Below, in pieces: positions 1,276 through 28,062 of a stretch of DNA of 31,518 nt; position 1 is the first letter of the stretch; each line of letters opens with the position of its first letter. The stretch is from IMG/VR virus record IMGVR_UViG_3300020421_000089, positions 1 to 31,518 of that record; one strand, given 5' to 3'. This DNA is from a virus. The notes beneath the pieces are model-generated. The model was not told where the DNA came from. It made no database searches and was given only the letters and a program-made list of their open reading frames with translations. The translations under genes were made by a program, and so were the position numbers.

Positions 1276-2422
1276 GAAGTATTTTATGAAAGATGTTATT
1301 GAAGCATCTAAAGAAGAAAAGTTTACAGTTATATCTACATTTGCTGGTGGTGGCGGTTCATCAACTGGTTACAGACTTGCAGGTGGTAAAATATTATTAG
1401 TAAATGAATTTGTTGAAGCTGCAAGACAAACATATAAAGATAATTATCCTGATACAGAAATATTACCACAAGATATAAAAGACTTAACAGGTTTTGATTT
1501 TTTAGATACTGCTGGTATAAAACCAGGTGAGTTAGACATATTAGATGGTTCACCTCCTTGTTCTGCATTTAGTATTGCAGGTAAAAGAGATAAAGGCTGG
1601 GACCAAGAGAAAGAATATTCAGATGGTAAGAAAGTAGAAAATATTGAAGACCTATTTCTAGAATATGTTAGAATAGCAAAAGAGATTAAACCAAAAGTTA
1701 TTGTTGCAGAAAATGTAAAAGGTATAACTGTTGGTGAAGCAAAACAGAAACTTAACGAGTTTATAAATGCATTTCAGAATATAGGTTATGATGTTACTTA
1801 CAAAGTTATGAATGCTGCACACTATGGTGTTCCACAAGCAAGAGAAAGAACTATGTTTGTTTGTGTAAGAGAAGATGTTTGTGAGTCTGTTGGTTTAAAT
1901 TTTATGACACTTGGTAATATATTTCCAAAAGAAAATGATGAGATGGTAACATTAAGACACGCACTTGAAGATATAGAAAACGATAAAGATGAAGAGCAAA
2001 TGTTATTAGATTATGTTCAAGCTGGTTTTCAAAAGAAATGGATAGAACTGTTAGAGTTTGACCCACCTAAACATTTAAAACCATCTGACGAAAGATTTAT
2101 TGATATTAATCCTAAAAGGTCTATGTTTAATATGATTAGGCCTTGTCAAGATTTACCTTGTCCTACATTGACACAAAGAGGTCAACAAACTGTAGTGTCT
2201 GGTGTATTTCATCCTATGAAACATAGAAAGTTTACTGTACCAGAACTAAAAAGAATTATGTCACTACCTGAAGATTTTGTAATGAAGTCAGATAAAGAAA
2301 CTGTAGCTAAAAGATTTGACCAAAGTGCTGAGAGAATTGGTCGTATGGTTGCACCTAAAATGATGGCATCACTTGCCGATGCAATTTATGTAAATATATT
2401 GGAGCCTTATAATAATGTATAA
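1268..2422 (+). CDS. C5-cytosine DNA methyltransferase paralogue A (predicted carboxymethyltransferase)
   Basis: A 384-residue C5-cytosine methyltransferase. Visible motifs are motif I FAGGGGSSTG, motif IV GSPPCSAFS with the catalytic Cys98, motif VI AENV, motif VIII QARERTMFV, a short target-recognition stretch around FNMIRPCQDLPCPTLT, motif IX KRIMSLPEDF and motif X ERIGRMVAPKMM. In motif X the usual Asn of GN.V.P is Arg (codon 2342-2344). This is the site where Asn-to-Lys makes other C5 enzymes accept carboxy-SAM. I chose the TTG start at 1268 over ATG 1241 or ATG 1286: GGAG at 1257-1260 is 7 bases upstream, and from TTG the N-terminus aligns residue for residue with paralogue B, placing the catalytic Cys at 98 in both. 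No restriction endonuclease is nearby. Methyl or carboxymethyl transfer cannot be settled from sequence alone. Confidence 0.9.
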   Translation: MYKKYFMKDVIEASKEEKFTVISTFAGGGGSSTGYRLAGGKILLVNEFVEAARQTYKDNYPDTEILPQDIKDLTGFDFLDTAGIKPGELDILDGSPPCSAFSIAGKRDKGWDQEKEYSDGKKVENIEDLFLEYVRIAKEIKPKVIVAENVKGITVGEAKQKLNEFINAFQNIGYDVTYKVMNAAHYGVPQARERTMFVCVREDVCESVGLNFMTLGNIFPKENDEMVTLRHALEDIENDKDEEQMLLDYVQAGFQKKWIELLEFDPPKHLKPSDERFIDINPKRSMFNMIRPCQDLPCPTLTQRGQQTVVSGVFHPMKHRKFTVPELKRIMSLPEDFVMKSDKETVAKRFDQSAERIGRMVAPKMMASLADAIYVNILEPYNNV

Positions 2423-3533
2423 ACCATATTATTTAAAAGATGTAATTGATAGTGAGAAAAGAGAATTGTTTACTGTAATGTCAACTTTTGCTGGTGGCGG
2501 TGGTTCATCAACTGGTTATAGATTGGCTGGTGGTAAGATACTTGCAATAAATGAGTTTGTTGAAGAGGCTAGAAAAACATATAGTGAGAATTATCCTAAT
2601 ACACCTATTATGCCTGATGATATAAAAGAGATTACAGGTAAAGATATATTAGATTTAATTAATTTGAAAGAGGGTGAACTTGATATACTTGATGGTTCAC
2701 CACCTTGTTCTGCATTTTCAGTTGCAGGTGCAATGGTACAAGGTGGTCATTCAAAAGGATTTAATCAGACTAAGAAATATTCAGATGGTAAAAAGATAGA
2801 GAATATAGAAGATTTATTTTTTGAGTATCTAAGAGTTGCAAAAGAAATCAAACCAAAAGTGATAGTGGGTGAGAATGTTGCTGGTTTGACTATGGGTGAA
2901 GCAAAAGAATACTATAACAAAATAACAAATACTTTTGAACAGATAGGTTATGATGTATCATCTAAAGTTTTAGATTCATCTCACTATGGTGTTGCACAAA
3001 CTAGAAAGAGATTAATTTTTATTGCAGTTCGTGAAGATGTAACTGCAGATGTAGGTTTAACATTTATGAATATATCAAGCGTCTTTCCTGAGAAGTTTAC
3101 AGATGCAATGACTTGTGGTGAAGTATTTGAAAACTTAGAGTATGATGAAGAAGAGATAAAAGAACTTACAGAATCATTTGCAAGAGGTTCACATTTTGAA
3201 ACAGCATCAAAGATGCCAAAAGACCCAGAGAAAGTTTTGACTGGTGCAAACTATCATCCTAAAGGCCACCACTTTAATATGAAAAGAATATCAAGACATA
3301 AACCATCACCAACGATTACAGCATCGGGTGGTTGTATTCACTGGTCTGATATGAGAAAATTAGCATTATGTGAAACAAGAAGAATAATGTCTTTACCTGA
3401 AGACTTTAAACTTACAGGTAAATGGAAACAAAAGAGTGAGCGTATGGGTAGAATGGTACCTCCTCTTATGATGAAAGCTATTGCAGAATCAGTATATGAA
3501 AAAGTATTGAAACCATACAAGGAGAAAAAATGA
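2415..3533 (+). CDS. C5-cytosine DNA methyltransferase paralogue B (predicted carboxymethyltransferase)
   Basis: A 372-residue tandem paralogue of the preceding gene, overlapping it by 8 bases. It has motif I FAGGGGSSTG, motif IV GSPPCSAFS (Cys98), motif VI GENV, motif VIII AQTRKRLIFI, a recognition stretch around HFNMKRISRHKPSPTIT, motif IX RRIMSLPEDF and motif X ERMGRMVPPLMM. Motif X again has Arg (residue 346, codon 3450-3452) in place of the family Asn. The N-terminal half is very close to paralogue A. The segment between motifs VIII and IX differs in sequence and length, and B has an insertion (AMVQGGHSKGF) after motif IV. That pattern suggests different target sequences with the same cofactor choice. 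The start ATG 2415 has GGAG at 2401-2404, a rather long spacing. Confidence 0.9.
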   Translation: MYKPYYLKDVIDSEKRELFTVMSTFAGGGGSSTGYRLAGGKILAINEFVEEARKTYSENYPNTPIMPDDIKEITGKDILDLINLKEGELDILDGSPPCSAFSVAGAMVQGGHSKGFNQTKKYSDGKKIENIEDLFFEYLRVAKEIKPKVIVGENVAGLTMGEAKEYYNKITNTFEQIGYDVSSKVLDSSHYGVAQTRKRLIFIAVREDVTADVGLTFMNISSVFPEKFTDAMTCGEVFENLEYDEEEIKELTESFARGSHFETASKMPKDPEKVLTGANYHPKGHHFNMKRISRHKPSPTITASGGCIHWSDMRKLALCETRRIMSLPEDFKLTGKWKQKSERMGRMVPPLMMKAIAESVYEKVLKPYKEKK

Positions 3534-4244: not shown

Positions 4245-5291
4245 ATGACAGATTTTTTAAAAGATGTTATAAAAACAACTGGTAATGAATATGCTGCACT
4301 TGTTTCAGAAGGTGTTGAAGCTGGTGATGTAGATACATTTATTGATACTGGTTCTTATATATTTAATGCATTACTATCTGGTTCTATTAATGGTGGATTA
4401 CCTGCAAATAAAATCACTGCAATCGCTGGTGAGAGTGCAACAGGTAAAACATTTTTTGTTATGGGAATGTGTAAAAGATTTCTAGATGAAAATCCAGATG
4501 GTGGTGTTATATATTTTGAGAGTGAAAGTGCAATTACAAAACAAATGGTTATAGATAGAGGTATTGATGCAAATCGTATGGTAATACTTCCTGTAACCAC
4601 AGTACAAGAATTTAGAACACAGGCTATAAAAGTTTTAGATGCATATATAAATCAAGATGCAGCTAGTCGTAAACCTATGTTTCTTGCACTAGATTCACTT
4701 GGTATGTTATCAACAACAAAAGAAGTTGAAGATACAGCTGAGGGTAAAGAAACTAGAGATATGACTAGAGCACAATTACTCAAAGCAGCATTTAGAGTTT
4801 TAACTTTGAAACTCGGTAAAGCAAGAGTACCTATGGTAGTTACTAACCACACATATGATGTAGTTGGTTCTATGTTTCCACAAAAAGAAATGGGTGGTGG
4901 TTCTGGATTAAAATATGCAGCATCATCTATTGTTTATCTTTCAAAGAAAAAAGAAAAAGATGGAACAGAAGTTGTGGGTAATATTATACATTGTAAAAAC
5001 TTTAAATCAAGACTTACAGTTGAAAATAAAATGGTTGATGTAAGATTAACTTATAATAAAGGTCTTGATAGATATTATGGGTTACTTGAACTTGCTGAAA
5101 AGTATAAAGTGTTTAAGAAAGTTGCAACAAGATTTGAGTTACCAGATGGTTCAAAACAATATGGTAAAACTATTTTGAATGACCCAAAGAAATATTTCAC
5201 TCAAGATATTATGGACATTTTAGAAGAGTGTGCTAAGAAGGAGTTTAGATATGGCGGAACAGTTGAAGAACGCGAAACGAGCAGCGAATGA
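4245..5291 (+). CDS. uvsX: UvsX RecA-like recombinase
   Basis: A 348-residue RecA-family strand-exchange ATPase. Walker A GESATGKT is at 62-69. The Walker B-like strand is [12 protein letters not shown], and the DNA-binding loop region lies around NHTYDV and [12 protein letters not shown], as in T4 UvsX. UvsX loads on single-stranded DNA and drives recombination-dependent replication and repair in T4-like phages. A ribosome site, AAGGAG, precedes ATG 4245. The gene opens the replication block and directly follows the cytosine-modification cassette. Length and motifs fit the marine T4-like UvsX group. Confidence 0.95.
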
Positions 5292-7009: not shown

Positions 7010-7205
7010 AAAAAATAAAATAAAATATTATGTTGATGTCACTTGGAGAAACAAAGAAGCAGTTTATGTTGTTGTTGAATTACCAACAAATGATGTTGTC
7101 AAAACATTTAAGTTTAAGGAAGACGCTGAAGATATGGCAGAACAATTAATGAAAGTTAAACCTTTTGGTCATCAACCATTACCTAAATTCTTAAAGGAAC
7201 AATAA
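6981..7205 (+). CDS. Small hypothetical protein
   Basis: A 74-residue basic protein starting MRNSRTSKYRKNKIKYYVDV. It is preceded by GGAG at 6970-6973 and overlaps the end of the helicase gene. It has a short beta-rich core (YYVDVTWRNKEAVYVVVEL) followed by a helix with FKEDAEDMAEQL. I recognise no family. Coupling to the helicase and the oxygenase genes (TAATG junction at 7203-7207) makes it a real gene. Its function is not inferable. Confidence 0.75.
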   Translation: MRNSRTSKYRKNKIKYYVDVTWRNKEAVYVVVELPTNDVVKTFKFKEDAEDMAEQLMKVKPFGHQPLPKFLKEQ

Positions 7206-7780
7206 TGAACTATAATGAACGAAAAAGATATAAAGATGCAAAGTTTTTTAAGTTTAGTGAAGAATATCCTGTAATTATGAAAACATATCCTGATTGGAAA
7301 GAAATAAATCCTATTCTTGAAAAATATATCAGAGAACAAGGTGATAGAAAAAATAAAAGAACTAATGTAAAAGCATCAATGACAGAGTGGAATATGCAAG
7401 TTGAAGCTGGCGGTGAACACTTTCAAAAGATATGTGATTTTGCAAGAGAGTTGTCTTTAGAAAATTCACCTGTACAATTTATTCCAGATGTTTATGATTG
7501 TTGGGGTGCAGTTTATAGAAAAGGTGAATTTACTCAATCACACGACCACTGGCCATCTATTTGGAGTTGGTGTTATTATGTAAATGTTTCTTCTAAGTGT
7601 TCACCACTACATTTTAAGAATGCAAGTGGTATTCTTAATGAACCACTTAATGTACAACCAAGTAATGGTTTGATGGTTATATTTCCAGGATGGGTTAAAC
7701 ACGAAGTTAAACCACAAATGTGTGACCACGAAAGAGTTATGATTGCTGGTAATATAAATGCAAGAGGTGCTGCATTTTAA
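7205..7780 (+). CDS. 2OG-Fe(II) oxygenase-like protein, paralogue 1
   Basis: A 191-residue double-stranded beta-helix oxygenase of the small phage type. The iron-site region QSHDHWPS holds His113, Asp114 and His115. FPGWVKHEV supplies His166, and HERVMIAGNI supplies Arg177 for 2-oxoglutarate. The shape (HxH/HD early, FP.W..H late, then R) resembles the putative 2OG-Fe(II) oxygenase family common in marine phages. The substrate is unknown. The gene is followed by a diverged tandem copy with a 1-base overlap (TAATG), so the two may form a heteromer or have split substrates. Confidence 0.8.
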   Translation: MNYNERKRYKDAKFFKFSEEYPVIMKTYPDWKEINPILEKYIREQGDRKNKRTNVKASMTEWNMQVEAGGEHFQKICDFARELSLENSPVQFIPDVYDCWGAVYRKGEFTQSHDHWPSIWSWCYYVNVSSKCSPLHFKNASGILNEPLNVQPSNGLMVIFPGWVKHEVKPQMCDHERVMIAGNINARGAAF

Positions 7781-8313
7781 TGAAAGAAGTTACTTTTACA
7801 AAAAGGGTAAAAATTGTAGAATCAATTTATGATGACCACGAAACATTAAACCCTAAATTAGAAAAGATAATTAGAGAACAAGGTGATAGACAAAATTATC
7901 GTACAGCTTTAAAAGCACATATGACAGAAATGAATATGTTAAAAGAAGATAATAGTGAGCCTTTTCACGAATTATCTGATTACATATACAAAGAATCATT
8001 AAGTATATCTCCTGCAGTTTACAAACCAACTTTTATAGATTGTTGGGGTGGTTTATATAAAGTTGGTCATCACGCTGAAATACACGACCACTGGCCTGCT
8101 TTATATAGTTTTGTGTATTATGTTAATGTGTCTGAAGAGTGTTCACCACTTGTGTTAACAGATTGTGGGTTTCATTATATCAAACCAAAGAATGGTTTAC
8201 TTACAGTATTTCCTGGTTGGATTAAACATTTTGTACCAAAACAAGAAAGTTCACACGAAAGAATAATAGTTTCAGGAAATATATCACCAAAAAACATTTA
8301 CAATTCCACTTGA
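7780..8313 (+). CDS. 2OG-Fe(II) oxygenase-like protein, paralogue 2
   Basis: A 177-residue tandem paralogue of the previous gene. It shares IIREQGDRQN (30-39), IHDHWPALYSFVYYVNVS (101-118), a late FPGWIKHFV with His150 and ERIIVSGNIS with Arg161. The candidate iron ligands are His102, Asp103 and His104 plus His150, all kept, so both copies look catalytically intact. Its stop codon overlaps the -35 element of the downstream promoter. No substrate can be assigned; peptide proline hydroxylation and base or nucleotide oxidation are both possible for small phage oxygenases. Confidence 0.8.
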   Translation: MKEVTFTKRVKIVESIYDDHETLNPKLEKIIREQGDRQNYRTALKAHMTEMNMLKEDNSEPFHELSDYIYKESLSISPAVYKPTFIDCWGGLYKVGHHAEIHDHWPALYSFVYYVNVSEECSPLVLTDCGFHYIKPKNGLLTVFPGWIKHFVPKQESSHERIIVSGNISPKNIYNST

Positions 8314-8364: not shown

Positions 8365-9603
8365 ATGTTAACATTCAAAGAATTCTTATTAGAAGATAAG
8401 GGTGGTAAAAATTTACACCTTGAACATATAGAAGATGAGATACTTAATTATGGTATCACTGGTGGTCGTGCTTCTATAAACTTCATACAATCATTAAGAG
8501 ATATGCTTGCTGGCACATCATCTGGTTCTGTTAATATGACAGTTAAATGGGATGGTGCACCTGCAATCTTTGCTGGCATAGACCCATCAGATGGTCAATT
8601 TTTCGTTGCTAAAAAATCAGTATTTAATGTAAATCCAAAACTTTATAAAAAAGAATCTGAAATAGATGTATCAGGTTCTTTAAAAGAGAAGTTTGCGATT
8701 GCATTACAAGAATTTAAAAAACTTGGAATCAAAGGTGTAATACAAGGCGATTTAATGTTTACATCTGGTGATTTGAAAAAGGAGAAAATAGATGAACAAG
8801 ATTTTATTTCTTTTCAGCCTAATACTATCGTGTATGCTGCACCTATGGGTTCTGAACTTGCTAGACAGTTCACTCAAGCAAAAATTGGAGTCGTATGGCA
8901 CACAACCTATTCGGGTGATAACCTGGCAGATATGAAAGCATCCTTTGGTGTTAATATAAAAGGATTAAAAAAGATAAGTAGTGTATGGATGGATGATGCT
9001 ACTTATAAAGATGTATCTGGTAGAGCAAAGTTCACTAAATCAGAAACAGAAAAAGTAACTTCTGTATTATCTGAGGCCGGTAGTATTTTCAGAAGAATCA
9101 ATTCTTCATTATTAGAAAAATTTATAAGACTACAAAATTCATTCACAGGTAACTTGGCTGGAGCAAGTCTAAAAACTTACAACAATATTTCTGTAAGACA
9201 AGGACAAACAGTAACGAATGTGAGAAAACATGCAGATGGCTATCTGACTCATATTGAAAATCATTTTAAAAAGCTTCAGGACAAAGTTAAAACATCAGGG
9301 GCCAAGGATAAGATTGAAAGAAATAAGAAAGAGTATCTGAGAGAGTTTAAAAAACATATCAGAAACATAGAAAATGTCATTTCTTTCCAAAATGCTCTGG
9401 TGAACGCTAAAAATATAATTGTTAGAAAGTTGAATTCAGTAAGACAGCTTGCTAATACTTTCATACGAACAGATAAAGGTTACAAAGTTACAAACCCAGA
9501 AGGCTATGTCGCTATTGACAAAGAAGGAAAAGCCGTTAAACTAGTTGATAGAATGGAATTTTCATTCAATAACTTTACAGCTAGAAAGGCGTGGGATAAA
9601 TGA
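8365..9603 (+). CDS. Ligase-superfamily-like nucleotidyltransferase with capsid-targeting-like N-terminus
   Basis: A 412-residue protein. The N-terminus MLTFKEFLLE ends in Glu10 like the T4 capsid targeting peptide. Motifs fit covalent nucleotidyltransferases of the DNA/RNA ligase type: motif I KWDG with Lys61, a motif III-like FFVAKKSVF (79-87), a motif IIIa-like GVIQGDLMF (124-132), motif IV EGYVA (379-383) and motif V VKLV (391-394). A long lysine-rich helical insert (about 290-350) separates the first and last motifs. I recall related T4-like phage proteins grouped as a domain of unknown function (DUF6267), which I cannot confirm here. I infer an injected or packaged nucleic-acid end-joining or capping enzyme. 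A degenerate, non-catalytic fold is the alternative. Confidence 0.65.
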   Translation: MLTFKEFLLEDKGGKNLHLEHIEDEILNYGITGGRASINFIQSLRDMLAGTSSGSVNMTVKWDGAPAIFAGIDPSDGQFFVAKKSVFNVNPKLYKKESEIDVSGSLKEKFAIALQEFKKLGIKGVIQGDLMFTSGDLKKEKIDEQDFISFQPNTIVYAAPMGSELARQFTQAKIGVVWHTTYSGDNLADMKASFGVNIKGLKKISSVWMDDATYKDVSGRAKFTKSETEKVTSVLSEAGSIFRRINSSLLEKFIRLQNSFTGNLAGASLKTYNNISVRQGQTVTNVRKHADGYLTHIENHFKKLQDKVKTSGAKDKIERNKKEYLREFKKHIRNIENVISFQNALVNAKNIIVRKLNSVRQLANTFIRTDKGYKVTNPEGYVAIDKEGKAVKLVDRMEFSFNNFTARKAWDK

Positions 9604-10964
9604 TAAACTTTAAGACATATATTAGTGAAGCTACATTAGACATAAAAACTATGAACAAACAACTTGCTGGTATTCAAAGGTCTGCAATATTAGCTAAAGC
9701 AATATTAAGTGGTAATAAGTTAGAAACAAAAAAAGGTAATGTATCGTTAAGTTGGATTAGTGACCAAGATAAAAAAGCATTTGATATGAATGATTTTCAA
9801 AATGCATTTAAAGATGGTAATAATTATAAAAATGTTTTTGTATCACCAGACGGTGATGAGGTTAAATTAACTGATGTTATTAAAACAGCAATGTTTGGTG
9901 GTGGTGCCGGTTCAGGTGGTGGTTCAAAAAATACTGCAAAAGTAGAAAGTGGTCAATGTGTATATTTAGCAGCATTATATAATGGTAGAAAATTTGCAGA
10001 TGTATCTGATAGTTTAGATGATGCAGAGATGTCTGCTGCTGCATCTAAGTATAATATATCAGTTAGTTTAGATGAAGTTGCAACTATGAATGATGATTGG
10101 ATTCATTCTTCAATAATTGTTGCACAAGCTCTCAAACCATTTTTAGGTAATAAAAGTTATGTTTTTCATCATCAATCACCATTTGTTAAAAATTTGTATG
10201 GTGCATATTCTAAGTTAAATAAAAAACTACCTTCACCATTTAGAAAACCAGATAAATGGAACCCAGCTGATATATGGGCTGTAGATGGTGTTGAAAATCA
10301 CGATTGGTATCAATATAATTCATTAGCTGAAATGAATAACGAATTAAAAGAAATGTATGTAAAAAGACAATGTGTTGGCATCTCACTTAAACAAGCTGCA
10401 GGTAATGTTACTTTATTAGAAAAAAATACTGATGGTTTTATTAGAAGACCTATAAGAATGATTGATTATGATATTGGTAGAAAGGGTGTTTTTGATTCAA
10501 AACATTGTACTATATTTGGAACAGAAAACTTTATTATGCCAATGAGAGTTTATGATGGTTTATTTGGTGGGTTTGCAGGCGAAGTAAAACTAAAAAGAGC
10601 ACAGGGTGGTAAAGTAAAAGGAACACTTATTGACCAATTACTGAAAGTTAGACCAAAATTTGATGATAGAGAATTAGCAAAAAATGTACAAAGACCAAGT
10701 CCAAACTTTATTGAAGAATGTTATAATACATATCTTGCTGTTACGAAAAACAAAAGAGAGTTTAAAAACAAAGATGATTTTATAAAACAATTTAAAATCA
10801 ACGCAAAGAAAAATAAATCTTTAGTTTTTAGTAAATGGAAAGCAATGGATATGGTTGGAAGATTAATTAATTCAAGAAATAAAAAACACGAAGTCGTAGA
10901 TGCTTTGGCTGCATATGCTATGTCAGAGTCAAAAGACTCAGGACCATATGTGATAGCGAAATGA
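9600..10964 (+). CDS. Putative internal head protein with possible PD-(D/E)XK-like core
   Basis: A 454-residue protein starting MINFKTYISE, again a capsid-targeting-like decapeptide with Glu10, and coupled to the previous gene by ATGA. The centre carries KWNPADIWAVDG followed, after a helix, by CVGISLKQAAGN. The P-A-D and S-L-K spacing resembles a PD-(D/E)XK nuclease core, but I cannot confirm the fold. A glycine-rich linker (GGGAGSGGGS) at about 100-109 separates an N-terminal part from the rest. Function is unknown. If the nuclease reading is right it could be an injected anti-host nuclease. Confidence 0.6.
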   Translation: MINFKTYISEATLDIKTMNKQLAGIQRSAILAKAILSGNKLETKKGNVSLSWISDQDKKAFDMNDFQNAFKDGNNYKNVFVSPDGDEVKLTDVIKTAMFGGGAGSGGGSKNTAKVESGQCVYLAALYNGRKFADVSDSLDDAEMSAAASKYNISVSLDEVATMNDDWIHSSIIVAQALKPFLGNKSYVFHHQSPFVKNLYGAYSKLNKKLPSPFRKPDKWNPADIWAVDGVENHDWYQYNSLAEMNNELKEMYVKRQCVGISLKQAAGNVTLLEKNTDGFIRRPIRMIDYDIGRKGVFDSKHCTIFGTENFIMPMRVYDGLFGGFAGEVKLKRAQGGKVKGTLIDQLLKVRPKFDDRELAKNVQRPSPNFIEECYNTYLAVTKNKREFKNKDDFIKQFKINAKKNKSLVFSKWKAMDMVGRLINSRNKKHEVVDALAAYAMSESKDSGPYVIAK

Positions 10965-11155
10965 TAAAAGACGGACCAATGAAAGACCATATTAATAATA
11001 GTAAAGAAGGTGTAGTGAAAGCTGAGTACATCACTTATACGAAGAGAGATGGCTATCTTATGAAAGAAACAACTATTAGAAAGTTTCTAGGTAAAGATGG
11101 TAATTATATAGATTCTTATATAACTGAACCTTTAACGGAGGTAAAAGATGATTGA
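10961..11155 (+). CDS. Small hypothetical protein
   Basis: A 64-residue hydrophilic protein wedged between two larger genes with ATGA-type overlaps at both ends. The start is uncertain: ATG 10961 overlaps the upstream stop but has no clear ribosome site, and ATG 10980 would give a product six residues shorter. TTIRKFLGK near the middle faintly recalls the capsid-targeting peptides of its neighbours, but without the terminal Glu. No domain recognised. Confidence 0.6.
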   Translation: MIKDGPMKDHINNSKEGVVKAEYITYTKRDGYLMKETTIRKFLGKDGNYIDSYITEPLTEVKDD

Positions 11156-13733
11156 AGAACCTAGAATACCTAGAAAGAAAGGTCAACCAGCAGGTAGTGA
11201 TAAGCATTCTGATTTATATACAGATGAGAATCCTAAAGGCACTATACACGGATTAGGTTTTAAAGATGTTACGACAGCTAATGCCAGTGTTAAAAAGATT
11301 GAGAATAGTGGTAAAACACATGCACATAAAATACAAGCTGCAATTGCTATGGAACAAAGAGCTAAAGTTATGGGTAAAACTGCAGAAGCTGCAATTTATA
11401 GAAAGTTCATAGAGAAGATGAAAAAGATTACTAAACAAAAACAACAAAATGAAGAAAAGATGGCCTGTCCTGCTGCAACTCAAAATTTAAAGTTGAATAC
11501 TAAGAATAGAGATGCCACGATTAAAAGTTATAATTATGGTCCATTAAATGTTGATGAACCTGGTGATTATTGGAAAGATATTGCTAAGTATTGGAAAACA
11601 ACTGAAACTGCTGCAAAGAAGTCTGTATGTAATAATTGTGTTGCATTTGATGTATCACCAAGAATGTTAGAGTGCATGCCTGGCGAAACATCTGATGAAG
11701 ATGGTCGTTTAGGTTATTGTTGGATGCATCATTTTAAATGTCATTCTGCAAGAGCGTGTCACACTTGGGCAAAAGGTGGACCAATAACCACTGATGAAAA
11801 ATCTTATGATTGGCAAGAAAGAGGCCAGAAAAAAGAATCTGTTACTTTTAGAAAGTTCAATGAAAAAACAGAAGCAGTAGTATTTACATTTGGTAGATTT
11901 AATCCACCAACTACTGGCCACGAAAAATTAATACAAAAAGTAGCAAAAGTTGCGGGTGGTGATGATTTTTATATATTTCCATCTCACTCACAAAATCCAA
12001 AGAAAGACCCATTACCACTTGCTAAAAAAGTTGCATATATGAGAAATATGTTTCCTAGATACAAAAGAAATATTTTAGCTACTAATATGAAAACAGTATT
12101 AGATATTGCAGTTTACTTTCACGAACAAGGTTATAAACAAATTAAAATGGTTGTAGGTTCTGATAGAGTCGCTGAGTTTAATAAGTTATTGACAACATAT
12201 AATGGAAAAGACGCAAGGCACGGGTTTTATAATTTTAACAATATACAAGTATTAAGTGCTGGGGATAGAGACCCAGACGCAGAAGGCGTAACAGGAATGT
12301 CTGCATCAAAAATGAGAGCTGCAGCTTCTTCTAATGATTACGAAAGTTTTAAAAAGGGGTTACCAATGTCATTTAAAAATGGAGAAAAGTTATTTAAAGA
12401 TGTGCGTAAAGGTATGGGTTTAAGAGAAAATTCTACATATTCTGAAGTACAAATAGAAAGAGATTTATATATTAGAGGCGTGTTATATCAGATAGGTGAT
12501 ATAGTTGAAAATATTGATGATGGTACATCTGGTAAAGTTGTTCGTAGAGGAACGAATTATGTACAATATGCTGAAGATGGTAAAGTATATAAAGCATTCT
12601 TGTATCACATAAGAGAGAAAAAAGAAAAAGAAAAACAAGATGTAAAACAAGACAAAGAAATTAAAGATAGAGAAGGTACACAACCTGCTAAGTATTATGC
12701 AAAAGATGCAGAAGGTGACGATATGGCTAAATCAACAAAACAGGCTCGTGCAAGACACTTTGCAAAGTATGGTAAAAAAGATGATGATACTGATAAAAAT
12801 TACAAACAAGCACCTGGTGATGCTAATGCAAAAACTAAACCTTCTAAACATACAAAGAAATTTAAACAAATGTATGGTGAGGATGGTCCGTGTTGGGATA
12901 CTCACAAACAAGTTGGTATGAAAAAGAAAGGTGGTAGAATGGTACCTAATTGTGTGCCAAAAGAAGGAAATATAGAAGAAAAGATTGATGGTCTTGTTAA
13001 GAAAGCAGAGAAGTCAGGTATGCCTTATGGTGTTCTTAAAAAAGTATATGATAGAGGTATGGCTGCTTGGAAAACTGGACATAGACCAGGAACAACACCA
13101 CAACAATGGGCATTTGCTAGAGTTAATAGTTTTGTAACTAAATCAAGTGGAACTTGGGGTGGTGCAGATAAAGACTTGGCAAAACAAGTCAAAGGTAAAA
13201 AAGAAGCTTATGAGATAGGACAAGATTATGCTAAACACACTTTTTCAGTTACACCAGGCCAGAACTATAATCAGGCCCTTAAAAAGAAAGCAAGTAAACG
13301 AAACATCAAAGACTGGTTTGAAAGGGAATCTACTAGAAAAGAGTATCAAGAAAGATATAAAAATGAGTGGGAAGAAAGACTTAAAGAAACTTATGATAGA
13401 ATGTTAAACAAGCTTGAAGATAGTCAAGATAATAAATATATAGAGAAACTTGAGATTGTAGAATCTGAGTATCAAGGTCGTAAAGTTAAGTTAAATGACC
13501 CATTTAGATTACCATCTGGAAGTGGTAAAAAATTTGGTGTTTATGTAAAAAATGAAAAGGGAAATGTCGTTAAAGTAACTTTCGGTGACCCTAATATGGA
13601 TATCAAAAGAGATAGTCCTGAAAGAAGAGCATCGTTTAGAGCCAGACATAATTGTGACAATCCTGGTCCAAAAACAAAAGCACGATATTGGTCTTGTTAT
13701 CAATGGAGAGCTGGAGCAAAGGTTGACAATTAG
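11148..13733 (+). CDS. Mosaic multi-domain protein with HxGH-type nucleotidylyltransferase domain
   Basis: An 861-residue protein made of separable modules. Residues 1-98 are a conserved SDLYTDENPKGTIHGLGF domain. Residues 105-210 are Cys/His-rich (CNNC at 161-164, then CWMHHFKCHSARACHTW) and probably bind metal or a cluster. At 231-242 there is a capsid-targeting-like SVTFRKFNEKTE. Residues 244-425 form a cytidylyl/adenylyltransferase fold with FGRFNPPTTGH (248-258) and SASKMR (385-390). Residues 441-490 are a small beta domain (GDIVENIDDGTSGKVVRRG). Residues 511-577 are a Lys-rich KYYA...STKQARARHF module, then a PCWDTHKQVGMKKKGG module, then 608-690 with VYDRGMAAWKTGHRPGT. Residues 815-861 have RRASFRARHNCDNPG. 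I infer a precursor or packaged multifunctional protein. Shuffled modules like these recur in marine phages, from memory. Confidence 0.7.
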   Translation: MIEEPRIPRKKGQPAGSDKHSDLYTDENPKGTIHGLGFKDVTTANASVKKIENSGKTHAHKIQAAIAMEQRAKVMGKTAEAAIYRKFIEKMKKITKQKQQNEEKMACPAATQNLKLNTKNRDATIKSYNYGPLNVDEPGDYWKDIAKYWKTTETAAKKSVCNNCVAFDVSPRMLECMPGETSDEDGRLGYCWMHHFKCHSARACHTWAKGGPITTDEKSYDWQERGQKKESVTFRKFNEKTEAVVFTFGRFNPPTTGHEKLIQKVAKVAGGDDFYIFPSHSQNPKKDPLPLAKKVAYMRNMFPRYKRNILATNMKTVLDIAVYFHEQGYKQIKMVVGSDRVAEFNKLLTTYNGKDARHGFYNFNNIQVLSAGDRDPDAEGVTGMSASKMRAAASSNDYESFKKGLPMSFKNGEKLFKDVRKGMGLRENSTYSEVQIERDLYIRGVLYQIGDIVENIDDGTSGKVVRRGTNYVQYAEDGKVYKAFLYHIREKKEKEKQDVKQDKEIKDREGTQPAKYYAKDAEGDDMAKSTKQARARHFAKYGKKDDDTDKNYKQAPGDANAKTKPSKHTKKFKQMYGEDGPCWDTHKQVGMKKKGGRMVPNCVPKEGNIEEKIDGLVKKAEKSGMPYGVLKKVYDRGMAAWKTGHRPGTTPQQWAFARVNSFVTKSSGTWGGADKDLAKQVKGKKEAYEIGQDYAKHTFSVTPGQNYNQALKKKASKRNIKDWFERESTRKEYQERYKNEWEERLKETYDRMLNKLEDSQDNKYIEKLEIVESEYQGRKVKLNDPFRLPSGSGKKFGVYVKNEKGNVVKVTFGDPNMDIKRDSPERRASFRARHNCDNPGPKTKARYWSCYQWRAGAKVDN

Positions 13734-27050: not shown

Positions 27051-27196
27051 TGCCAGGAAAAACAATTTATTGCGATTCCTGTGAAGCCGTATTTAAAATA
27101 AATCATACAATGGATGATGAGTATTATAAAATAACTCATTGTCCATTTTGCGGAGAAGAACTAGATGATGAGTATGTAGATGAAGACACAGAGTAA
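27050..27196 (+). CDS. Small zinc-ribbon protein
   Basis: A 48-residue protein starting at ATG 27050, coupled to the reductase stop (TAATG). CDSC (8-11) and CPFC (31-34) form a four-Cys zinc ribbon, and the tail is strongly acidic. It overlaps the following nuclease gene by 17 bases. Similar mini zinc ribbons accompany phage nucleotide-metabolism genes, but no function is known. Confidence 0.8.
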   Translation: MPGKTIYCDSCEAVFKINHTMDDEYYKITHCPFCGEELDDEYVDEDTE

Positions 27197-27515
27197 AAAA
27201 TCAAAAGGCAGAAGACTACAAAAATGGGTTAGAGAACAACTCATAGAAAAATTAGAGATACACGAAGAAGACATTGAAAGTCGTTCAATGGGTGCTGGTG
27301 GTGAAGACTTAATTATGGCGAGAGCTGCAAGAGAAAAGTTTCCGTATTCTATTGAGTGTAAAAATCAAGAAAAATTAAACATTTGGGAAGCATATAAACA
27401 GGCATCTGATAATGCTGGTAAGTATGAACCTATAGTTGTTATTAAAAGAAATAATCAAAAACCATTAGTTTTAATTGATGCGGAATATTTTATGAGGTTA
27501 CATAATGGACATTGA
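27180..27515 (+). CDS. PD-(D/E)XK nuclease, Holliday-junction-resolvase-like
   Basis: A 111-residue basic protein. GAGGEDLIM provides Asp43 and SIECKNQEK provides Glu59 and Lys61, the D...ExK pattern of the PD-(D/E)XK nuclease fold. An N-terminal KSKGRRLQKWVREQL helix precedes it. Size and motif order resemble small phage resolvase-like nucleases. It could process recombination or replication intermediates made by UvsX. DNA specificity cannot be told. Confidence 0.75.
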   Translation: MKTQSKKSKGRRLQKWVREQLIEKLEIHEEDIESRSMGAGGEDLIMARAAREKFPYSIECKNQEKLNIWEAYKQASDNAGKYEPIVVIKRNNQKPLVLIDAEYFMRLHNGH

Positions 27516-28062
27516 ACAACATTACATAGATTTATATAAAGTTATGCACCAAGATAAAAAGAATTATCAAGGTGTAAGCTTAATGAAAGAAACTCCAAAC
27601 ATTGCTAATATTGTATTAGAAACTAATTCACACACAGTTTTAGATTATGGTTGTGGAAAAGGTAATCAATATATTGAATCACATTTAAATATATTGTTTC
27701 ATATACCTGATGATAATATTTTTATGTATGACCCTGGATTTGATGAACATAAAAAATTACCAGATAGAAAATTTGATGGTGTAATATCCACTGATGTTAT
27801 GGAACATATACCAGAAGATATAATACCTAAAACATTAAATCAAATATTTGAGAGAGCAGAGAAGTTCGTATATCTTGCAATATGTACAAGACCGGCTATT
27901 GCTATATTACCAAATGGTGAAAATGCACATTGTACAGTTGAAAAACCTGATTGGTGGGAACCACATATCCTCAAAGCAAACAAGAATAAAGTATGGACAG
28001 AAGTAAATTGGTACGGAAATCACAGAGATTATAGGAAATATAATACCACCCTTGACAAATAG
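27505..28062 (+). CDS. SAM-dependent methyltransferase, class I
   Basis: A 185-residue protein. TVLDYGCGKGNQY (44-56) is the SAM-binding motif I, MYDPGFD is the acidic loop, and DGVISTDVMEHIP is the motif IV-like strand. The C-terminus has PNGENAHCTVEKPDWW. The family occurs in many marine phages with unknown substrate (small molecule, protein or lipid). It is 23 kb from the cytosine cassette and not coupled to it, so I do not place it in that pathway. The gene overlaps the nuclease by 11 bases, and its stop overlaps the next promoter. Confidence 0.8.
   Translation: MDIEQHYIDLYKVMHQDKKNYQGVSLMKETPNIANIVLETNSHTVLDYGCGKGNQYIESHLNILFHIPDDNIFMYDPGFDEHKKLPDRKFDGVISTDVMEHIPEDIIPKTLNQIFERAEKFVYLAICTRPAIAILPNGENAHCTVEKPDWWEPHILKANKNKVWTEVNWYGNHRDYRKYNTTLDK

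Follow-up and report, generated by a model that had tools for sequence, protein, structure and literature searches.

A probable CmoX-type DNA hypermodification operon with two putative cytosine carboxymethyltransferases in a fragment of a T4-like marine phage

The closest described system is that of Synechococcus phage S-B43 (record MN018232.1), reported in December 2025 (PMC12783734), in which carboxy-SAM is made by CmoA, 5-carboxymethylcytosine is formed at GC by CmoX, and glycine is joined to the product by CmoY; the activities were measured. In the structure of CmoX (PDB 8YF3), the carboxymethyl group of carboxy-SAM is contacted, through its carboxylate, by Arg350, the counterpart of M.HhaI Asn304. 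The wild-type enzyme accepts carboxy-SAM as its sole cofactor, and the R350N variant takes neither carboxy-SAM nor SAM (PMC12783734). The same paper names an engineered carboxymethyltransferase, M.MpeI N374K, which uses carboxy-SAM and acts at a CG motif, and gives an IMG/VR survey with 5,615 Arg-type candidates; since IMG/VR was surveyed, the proteins described below may be among them. The type of system is thus already published. The idea of the first-pass annotation of the present DNA, that an Arg at this position marks a methyltransferase with an altered cofactor, was right in substance and has been in print for S-B43 CmoX since that date (PMC12783734). Experimental proof that this Arg means carboxymethylation belongs to S-B43 CmoX; for the enzymes considered here the same chemistry is a prediction from their sequences.

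The DNA analyzed (the window, 31,518 bases) is a whole IMG/VR record, classed as linear, and its relevant features are collected in the table. The complete gene set lies in a single operon, in the order cmoY, cmoX-A, cmoX-B, cmoA, with ORFs that are adjacent and overlap or nearly do so: the last 8 bases of cmoX-A are also the first of cmoX-B, and the last 4 of cmoX-B are the first of cmoA. The ligase gene, the two methyltransferase genes, cmoA and the RecA/UvsX-like gene all run in one direction with small or zero gaps between them. The first ORF of the window, for which Pfam gave zero matches, is presumably the end of a gene for a T4-like DNA polymerase. We read the window as part of the genome of a T4-like marine phage that carries a CmoX-type DNA hypermodification operon, in which CmoA, CmoX-A, CmoX-B and CmoY would together write amidated carboxymethylcytosine at two sequence contexts, and we put the probability of this reading, phage assignment and whole mechanism taken jointly, at about 0.88. 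Elsewhere in the window, two 2OG-Fe(II) oxygenase genes lie side by side (7205-7780 and 7780-8313; PF13759), and a gene for a small class I methyltransferase (27505-28062) adjoins a weak match, below cut-off, to a phage PDDEXK nuclease family (27180-27515).

Table. Positions of the putative hypermodification genes, their motif X codons and the following gene in the window
Feature	Position	Strand	Characteristics and basis
cmoY-like ATP-dependent amide ligase, 274 aa	451..1275	+	PP-loop SGGVDS, TTG start; PF00733
cmoX-A, predicted C5-cytosine carboxymethyltransferase, paralogue A, 378 aa	1286..2422	+	motif X Arg353; PF00145
codon CGT, Arg353 of cmoX-A	2342..2344	+	sequence, translation, alignment
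cmoX-B, predicted C5-cytosine carboxymethyltransferase, paralogue B, 372 aa	2415..3533	+	motif X Arg346; PF00145
codon AGA, Arg346 of cmoX-B	3450..3452	+	sequence, translation; aligned with S-B43 Arg350
cmoA, predicted carboxy-SAM synthase, 234 aa	3530..4234	+	best PDB and NCBIfam matches are CmoA
RecA/UvsX-like gene	4245-5291	same direction, after cmoA	Pfam

Both methyltransferases were matched by Pfam PF00145 (A, E 1.3e-54; B, E 1.9e-55), and in sequence searches the best solved-structure match of both was 8yf3 (A, E 1.1e-110; B, E 2.2e-151). This structure was matched along the whole length of cmoX-B, which is 62.9% identical to S-B43 CmoX. The predicted model of cmoX-A (mean pLDDT 87.2) also had 8yf3 as its best Foldseek match (E 1e-36). 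At motif X, where an ordinary SAM-dependent C5-methyltransferase has Asn, Arg is found in both paralogues: Arg346 of cmoX-B sits in SERMGRMVPPLMM and Arg353 of cmoX-A in AERIGRMVAPKMM, and the codons differ. The Arg columns of A and B align with each other and with ERVGRMVPP of S-B43 CmoX. The first-pass annotation had singled out ERMGRMVPPLMM near the end of cmoX-B, with its Arg at 3450-3452, and had described the PPCS, ENV and Q.R.R motifs as intact in both proteins. Both points were borne out: the AGA codon encodes residue 346, SPPCS is kept in A and B, and the further motifs GENV/AENV and QTRKR/QARER are present in the two translations. The active-site Glu of ENV and the Arg residues of QxRxR (E153, R197 and R199), which act on the flipped cytosine, are invariant in an alignment of 7 Arg-type sequences.

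The presumed partner proteins were compared with those of S-B43 in the same way. The best PDB matches of the window CmoA are 1im8 (E 3.3e-28) and 4gek (E 7.2e-27), and its identity to the S-B43 CmoA is 61.0%. Its match to NCBIfam TIGR00740 (E 1.5e-34, 119.8 bits) falls below the curated cut-off of 193.3, as does that of the biochemically proven S-B43 CmoA (115.6 bits); since a proven CmoA misses the cut-off, this was not used to deny CmoA membership. The ligase is an asparagine-synthetase-type PP-loop ATPase (Asn_synthase, PF00733, E 1.1e-13) in which no glutaminase domain was found. Along 100% of its length it shares 47.5% identity with the product of an S-B43 gene (record positions 147774-148601) described as a putative asparagine synthase and located between cmoA and cmoX in that phage.

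In the mechanism that we propose, CmoA would convert SAM and prephenate to carboxy-SAM. CmoX-A and CmoX-B would flip out the target cytosine, with the Cys of SPPC attacking C6 as in ordinary C5-methyltransferases, and the motif X Arg, in place of the usual Asn, would hold the carboxylate of carboxy-SAM, so that 5-carboxymethylcytosine rather than 5-methylcytosine would be made. CmoY would activate the carboxylate with ATP and join an amine to it; as in S-B43, this amine is most likely glycine. A pair of CmoX enzymes with differing recognition regions, fed by one cofactor supply and followed by one ligase, would mark two sequence contexts, and the modification may serve to hide the phage DNA from restriction enzymes. 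The proposal draws on the observed genes, the residue and its conservation, the linkage to cmoA and the purifying selection on both copies, and, from the S-B43 relatives (PMC12783734), on the demonstration of the three reactions and of the contact made by Arg.

That two contexts would be marked is suggested by the way in which A and B differ. Their identity is 62% in the catalytic half (B residues 1-223), 27% over B residues 224-306, taken here as the recognition region, and 38% in the C-terminal part (307-372), in agreement with the earlier description of the recognition region as diverged between the paralogues. Compared with the recognition region of S-B43 CmoX, that of B is 45% identical and that of A 26%, and cmoX-B may read GC like the S-B43 enzyme. 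Across loci, A-type and B-type recognition regions form distinct classes. Among the matches listed, 156 loci have a full-length Arg enzyme of the close family; 36 of these have two and 120, many of which are fragments, have a single one. The arrangements found among the matches listed included cmoY-A-B-cmoA in 6 loci (the window included), cmoY-B-B-cmoA in 14 and cmoY-A-A-cmoA in 4. By locus number in our set, A has a different B as its partner in L082-L084 and L087, B is paired with B in many of L053-L080, and A with A in L111, L119 and L129-L131. Judged from these sequences, one cofactor supply and one ligase most likely serve two recognition sequences. We favor, at somewhat better than even odds, the more general view that two CmoX enzymes with one CmoA and one ligase place the same amide-bearing cytosine at two unrelated sequences, that the recognition region is exchangeable, and that pairs formed, or were re-assembled, on several occasions.

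In one alternative, A and B share a single target sequence, such as GC, and having two enzymes serves only to increase the dose or to give different timing. The closeness of B to the GC-specific S-B43 enzyme would fit this, as would the B-B pairs elsewhere, in which about 50% identity persists between the recognition regions; the window pair, in contrast, is far less identical in the recognition region than in the catalytic half, and the A-type and B-type regions are separate classes across loci, so that we consider a shared target rather unlikely. Base composition was also tried as a guide to the recognition motif and rejected, and no motif is named from it. The observed/expected ratio in the window is 0.39 for CG and 1.03 for GC, at a G+C content of 31.7%; for CG in other loci it is 0.40 where there is a single B, 0.33 with A and B, and 0.83 with A only. 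Because single-B and A+B loci share the strong CG depletion of the window and A-only loci differ, the depletion is a trait of the phage lineage.

In a 77-row tree, A and B fall into two separate supported clades (22 rows, support 95/82; 9 rows, 100/98), and cmoX-B lies on the same side as the enzymes of S-B43 and S-CRM01. With the clades separate and supported, a recent local duplication was rejected as the origin of the pair. The first-pass annotation had spoken of the same Asn-to-Arg change in both paralogues. Arg is indeed present in both, but the change was not made twice: A and B each belong to an older Arg-bearing clade. Purifying selection acts on both copies: in comparisons with orthologues, 5 for A and 6 for B, dN/dS was 0.11-0.25 and 0.11-0.15, respectively. 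Among the matches listed, 196 close-family sequences were aligned and all 196 have Arg at the site, while all six of its codons occur there in the virus loci (AGA 108, CGT 38, CGC 32, CGA 19, AGG 3 and CGG 1); such conservation is more than chance, and it upholds, together with the low dN/dS of A and B, the earlier claim that the Arg is under selection. We find it improbable, then, that a single carboxymethyltransferase is active and the other paralogue is decaying or regulatory. A lone CmoX does suffice in most of the loci counted above, many of them fragments, but SPPC, ENV, QxRxR and the Arg are kept in both window copies, pairs are present in several lineages, and decay of one copy was rejected on the intact motifs and the low dN/dS.

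The association of Arg with cmoA was examined in loci chosen by similarity, which are not a random sample. Virus relatives comprised the best 80 each of B, A, Leu-type and Met-type enzymes and 19 of the Asn type, the A and B sets sharing loci; to these were added ten regions of named phages and the best 80 loci from bacterial and archaeal genomes, found with an Arg-type profile. An alignment gave the residue at motif X, and homologues of cmoA, cmoY and TET were sought by BLASTP within 10 kb on each side. Among the matches listed, cmoA was found at 133 of 163 virus Arg loci and 35 of 39 genome Arg loci (168/202 together), against 0 of 215 Asn, Leu and Met loci in the fetched stretches (virus, Leu 81, Met 82, Asn 16; genome, Met 25, Asn 11), in a comparison biased towards agreement by the use of cmoA references taken from Arg phages and by the counting of weak matches at 21-28% identity. 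When sequences were clustered at 70% identity, cmoA accompanied 26 of 32 Arg clusters and 0 of 39 others (among the matches listed). Lys (GK) was found at the motif X column in none of the enzymes read. The residue was unreadable in 5 genome loci, 2 of which carry cmoA, and in 2 virus loci. These counts agree with the co-occurrence of Arg enzymes and CmoA that the first-pass annotation had proposed, and the opposite pattern, many Arg enzymes in genomes lacking CmoA, was not seen in these tests.

The exceptions are 34 Arg loci without a separate cmoA in the fetched stretch, many of which end at a contig edge just past the methyltransferase. The whole record or genome was searched for 18 of them, and cmoA was found in 5 (L117, L118, L346, L387 and L166); the 13 contigs in which it was not found are fragments of 4-27 kb. 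The same gene was absent from 14 whole records or genomes of the Asn, Met and Leu types and from the complete Melnitz genome. In L117 and L118, which are cmoX-A relatives, cmoA lies elsewhere on the contig, more than 10 kb off; the system need not form an operon. Several genome loci have cmoA matches of the weak kind, and for the 5 such proteins tested (L389, L347, L401, L366 and L158) the best NCBIfam match was the CmoA model, below its cut-off. Three Verrucomicrobia genomes each have several loci with an Arg methyltransferase and a CmoA-like protein (JAKQDD: L366, L368, L371, L389, L393 and L409; JABTUJ: L388, L397 and L403; JAOSKK: L386, L394, L400, L410 and L421).

In some bacterial genomes the partners are joined in one protein. 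In L387 (Reichenbachiella faecimaris), a single frame of 775 aa at 9083-11407 fuses a CmoA domain to an Arg methyltransferase, and this CmoA domain clears the curated cut-off (194.6 vs 193.3 bits). A CmoY-like region and a methyltransferase share a frame in L348 (8996-11134), L350 (8981-11119) and L383 (9119-11065); the ligase domain of L348 was seen by BLASTP and a weak NCBIfam match and was undetected by Pfam, and the L383 fusion, whose motif X residue is unreadable, was identified by BLASTP alone. That A and B are ordinary SAM-dependent C5-methyltransferases, with a neutral Arg at motif X and a cmoA that serves tRNA or something else, is very improbable: their catalytic motifs are ordinary, and Pfam and NCBIfam label both plain cytosine methyltransferases, but Arg is linked to cmoA and the other residues are not in the counts above, a CmoA domain that passes the cut-off is fused to an Arg enzyme, and S-B43 CmoX, 63% identical to B, refuses SAM (PMC12783734).

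On the tree, the residue and cmoA change four times each. Of the 77 rows, 7 (2 duplicate references and 5 fragments) were excluded from scoring, and in all 70 that were scored Arg and cmoA agree. The independent switch pairs on supported branches number 3, too few for a sign test to reach 0.05 (p 0.25). A single closed clade of Arg enzymes was rejected (AU p 1.6e-5), because the Asn row L264 and a Leu row fall inside; the placement of the Leu row is unsure because its branch is long (1.26). The Asn enzymes L264, L265 and L373 lie near the Arg group of Streptomyces phage TurkishDelight, and cmoA was not found in their whole records or genome (72 kb for L264). A return to ordinary methylation is possible in these three cases.

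Two other classes of enzyme were seen among the relatives. Methylophilales phage Melnitz-3 (L157, 4010-6194) and its relatives L167-L246 have Leu at motif X and no cmoA, and a TET/JBP oxygenase gene (PF12851, E 3.6e-11) lies beside the Leu enzyme in 65 of 81 loci among the matches listed. The link of a phage methyltransferase to a TET oxygenase is a known pathway. Since these Leu-type methyltransferases lie between the DNA polymerase gene and recA, near the position of the CmoX operon in the window, the two systems may share a genome site. No match to the Melnitz TET was found in any Arg locus, the window included, and TET-coupled hypermodification of 5-methylcytosine is not indicated there. 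The Met clade, with YLIGMSVPP at motif X (L163, L165, L266-L345 and 25 genome loci), had neither cmoA nor TET found nearby.

A single residue thus reports the partner genes of a phage C5-methyltransferase and hence, probably, its cofactor: Arg goes with cmoA, Leu (in the fetched set) with TET, and Asn and Met with neither. This makes it possible to predict the DNA chemistry of uncultured phages from their sequences. Should the two members of a pair read different motifs, such pairs would provide ready-made recognition modules with which a carboxylate or an amide could be placed at chosen DNA sites. Relative to the main text of PMC12783734, the one paper on carboxymethylcytosine in phages found in the literature searched, what is added here is the pairing of CmoX enzymes with diverged recognition regions, the Asn, Leu and Met negative controls, and the fusions; CmoX pairing was not found in that main text.

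Compared with the known systems, the window enzymes share the fold and catalytic motifs of M.HhaI and M.HaeIII, but these have Asn at motif X (Asn304 in M.HhaI) and use SAM as cofactor. They resemble M.MpeI N374K in that this motif X position is occupied by a basic residue; in that enzyme it is Lys by design, whereas all of the carboxymethyltransferase candidates read from nature carry Arg and none Lys. The Melnitz type resembles the window in that a related enzyme lies near a DNA polymerase and RecA, as the window operon lies near a RecA/UvsX-like gene; unlike the window, it lacks cmoA, has a TET_JBP gene alongside and carries Leu at motif X. The nearest likeness is to S-B43: the three gene families are all present in the window, together with the SPPC nucleophile and the Arg of motif X. 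Unlike S-B43, which has one CmoX and the order cmoA-cmoY-cmoX, the window has two, in the order cmoY-cmoX-A-cmoX-B-cmoA.
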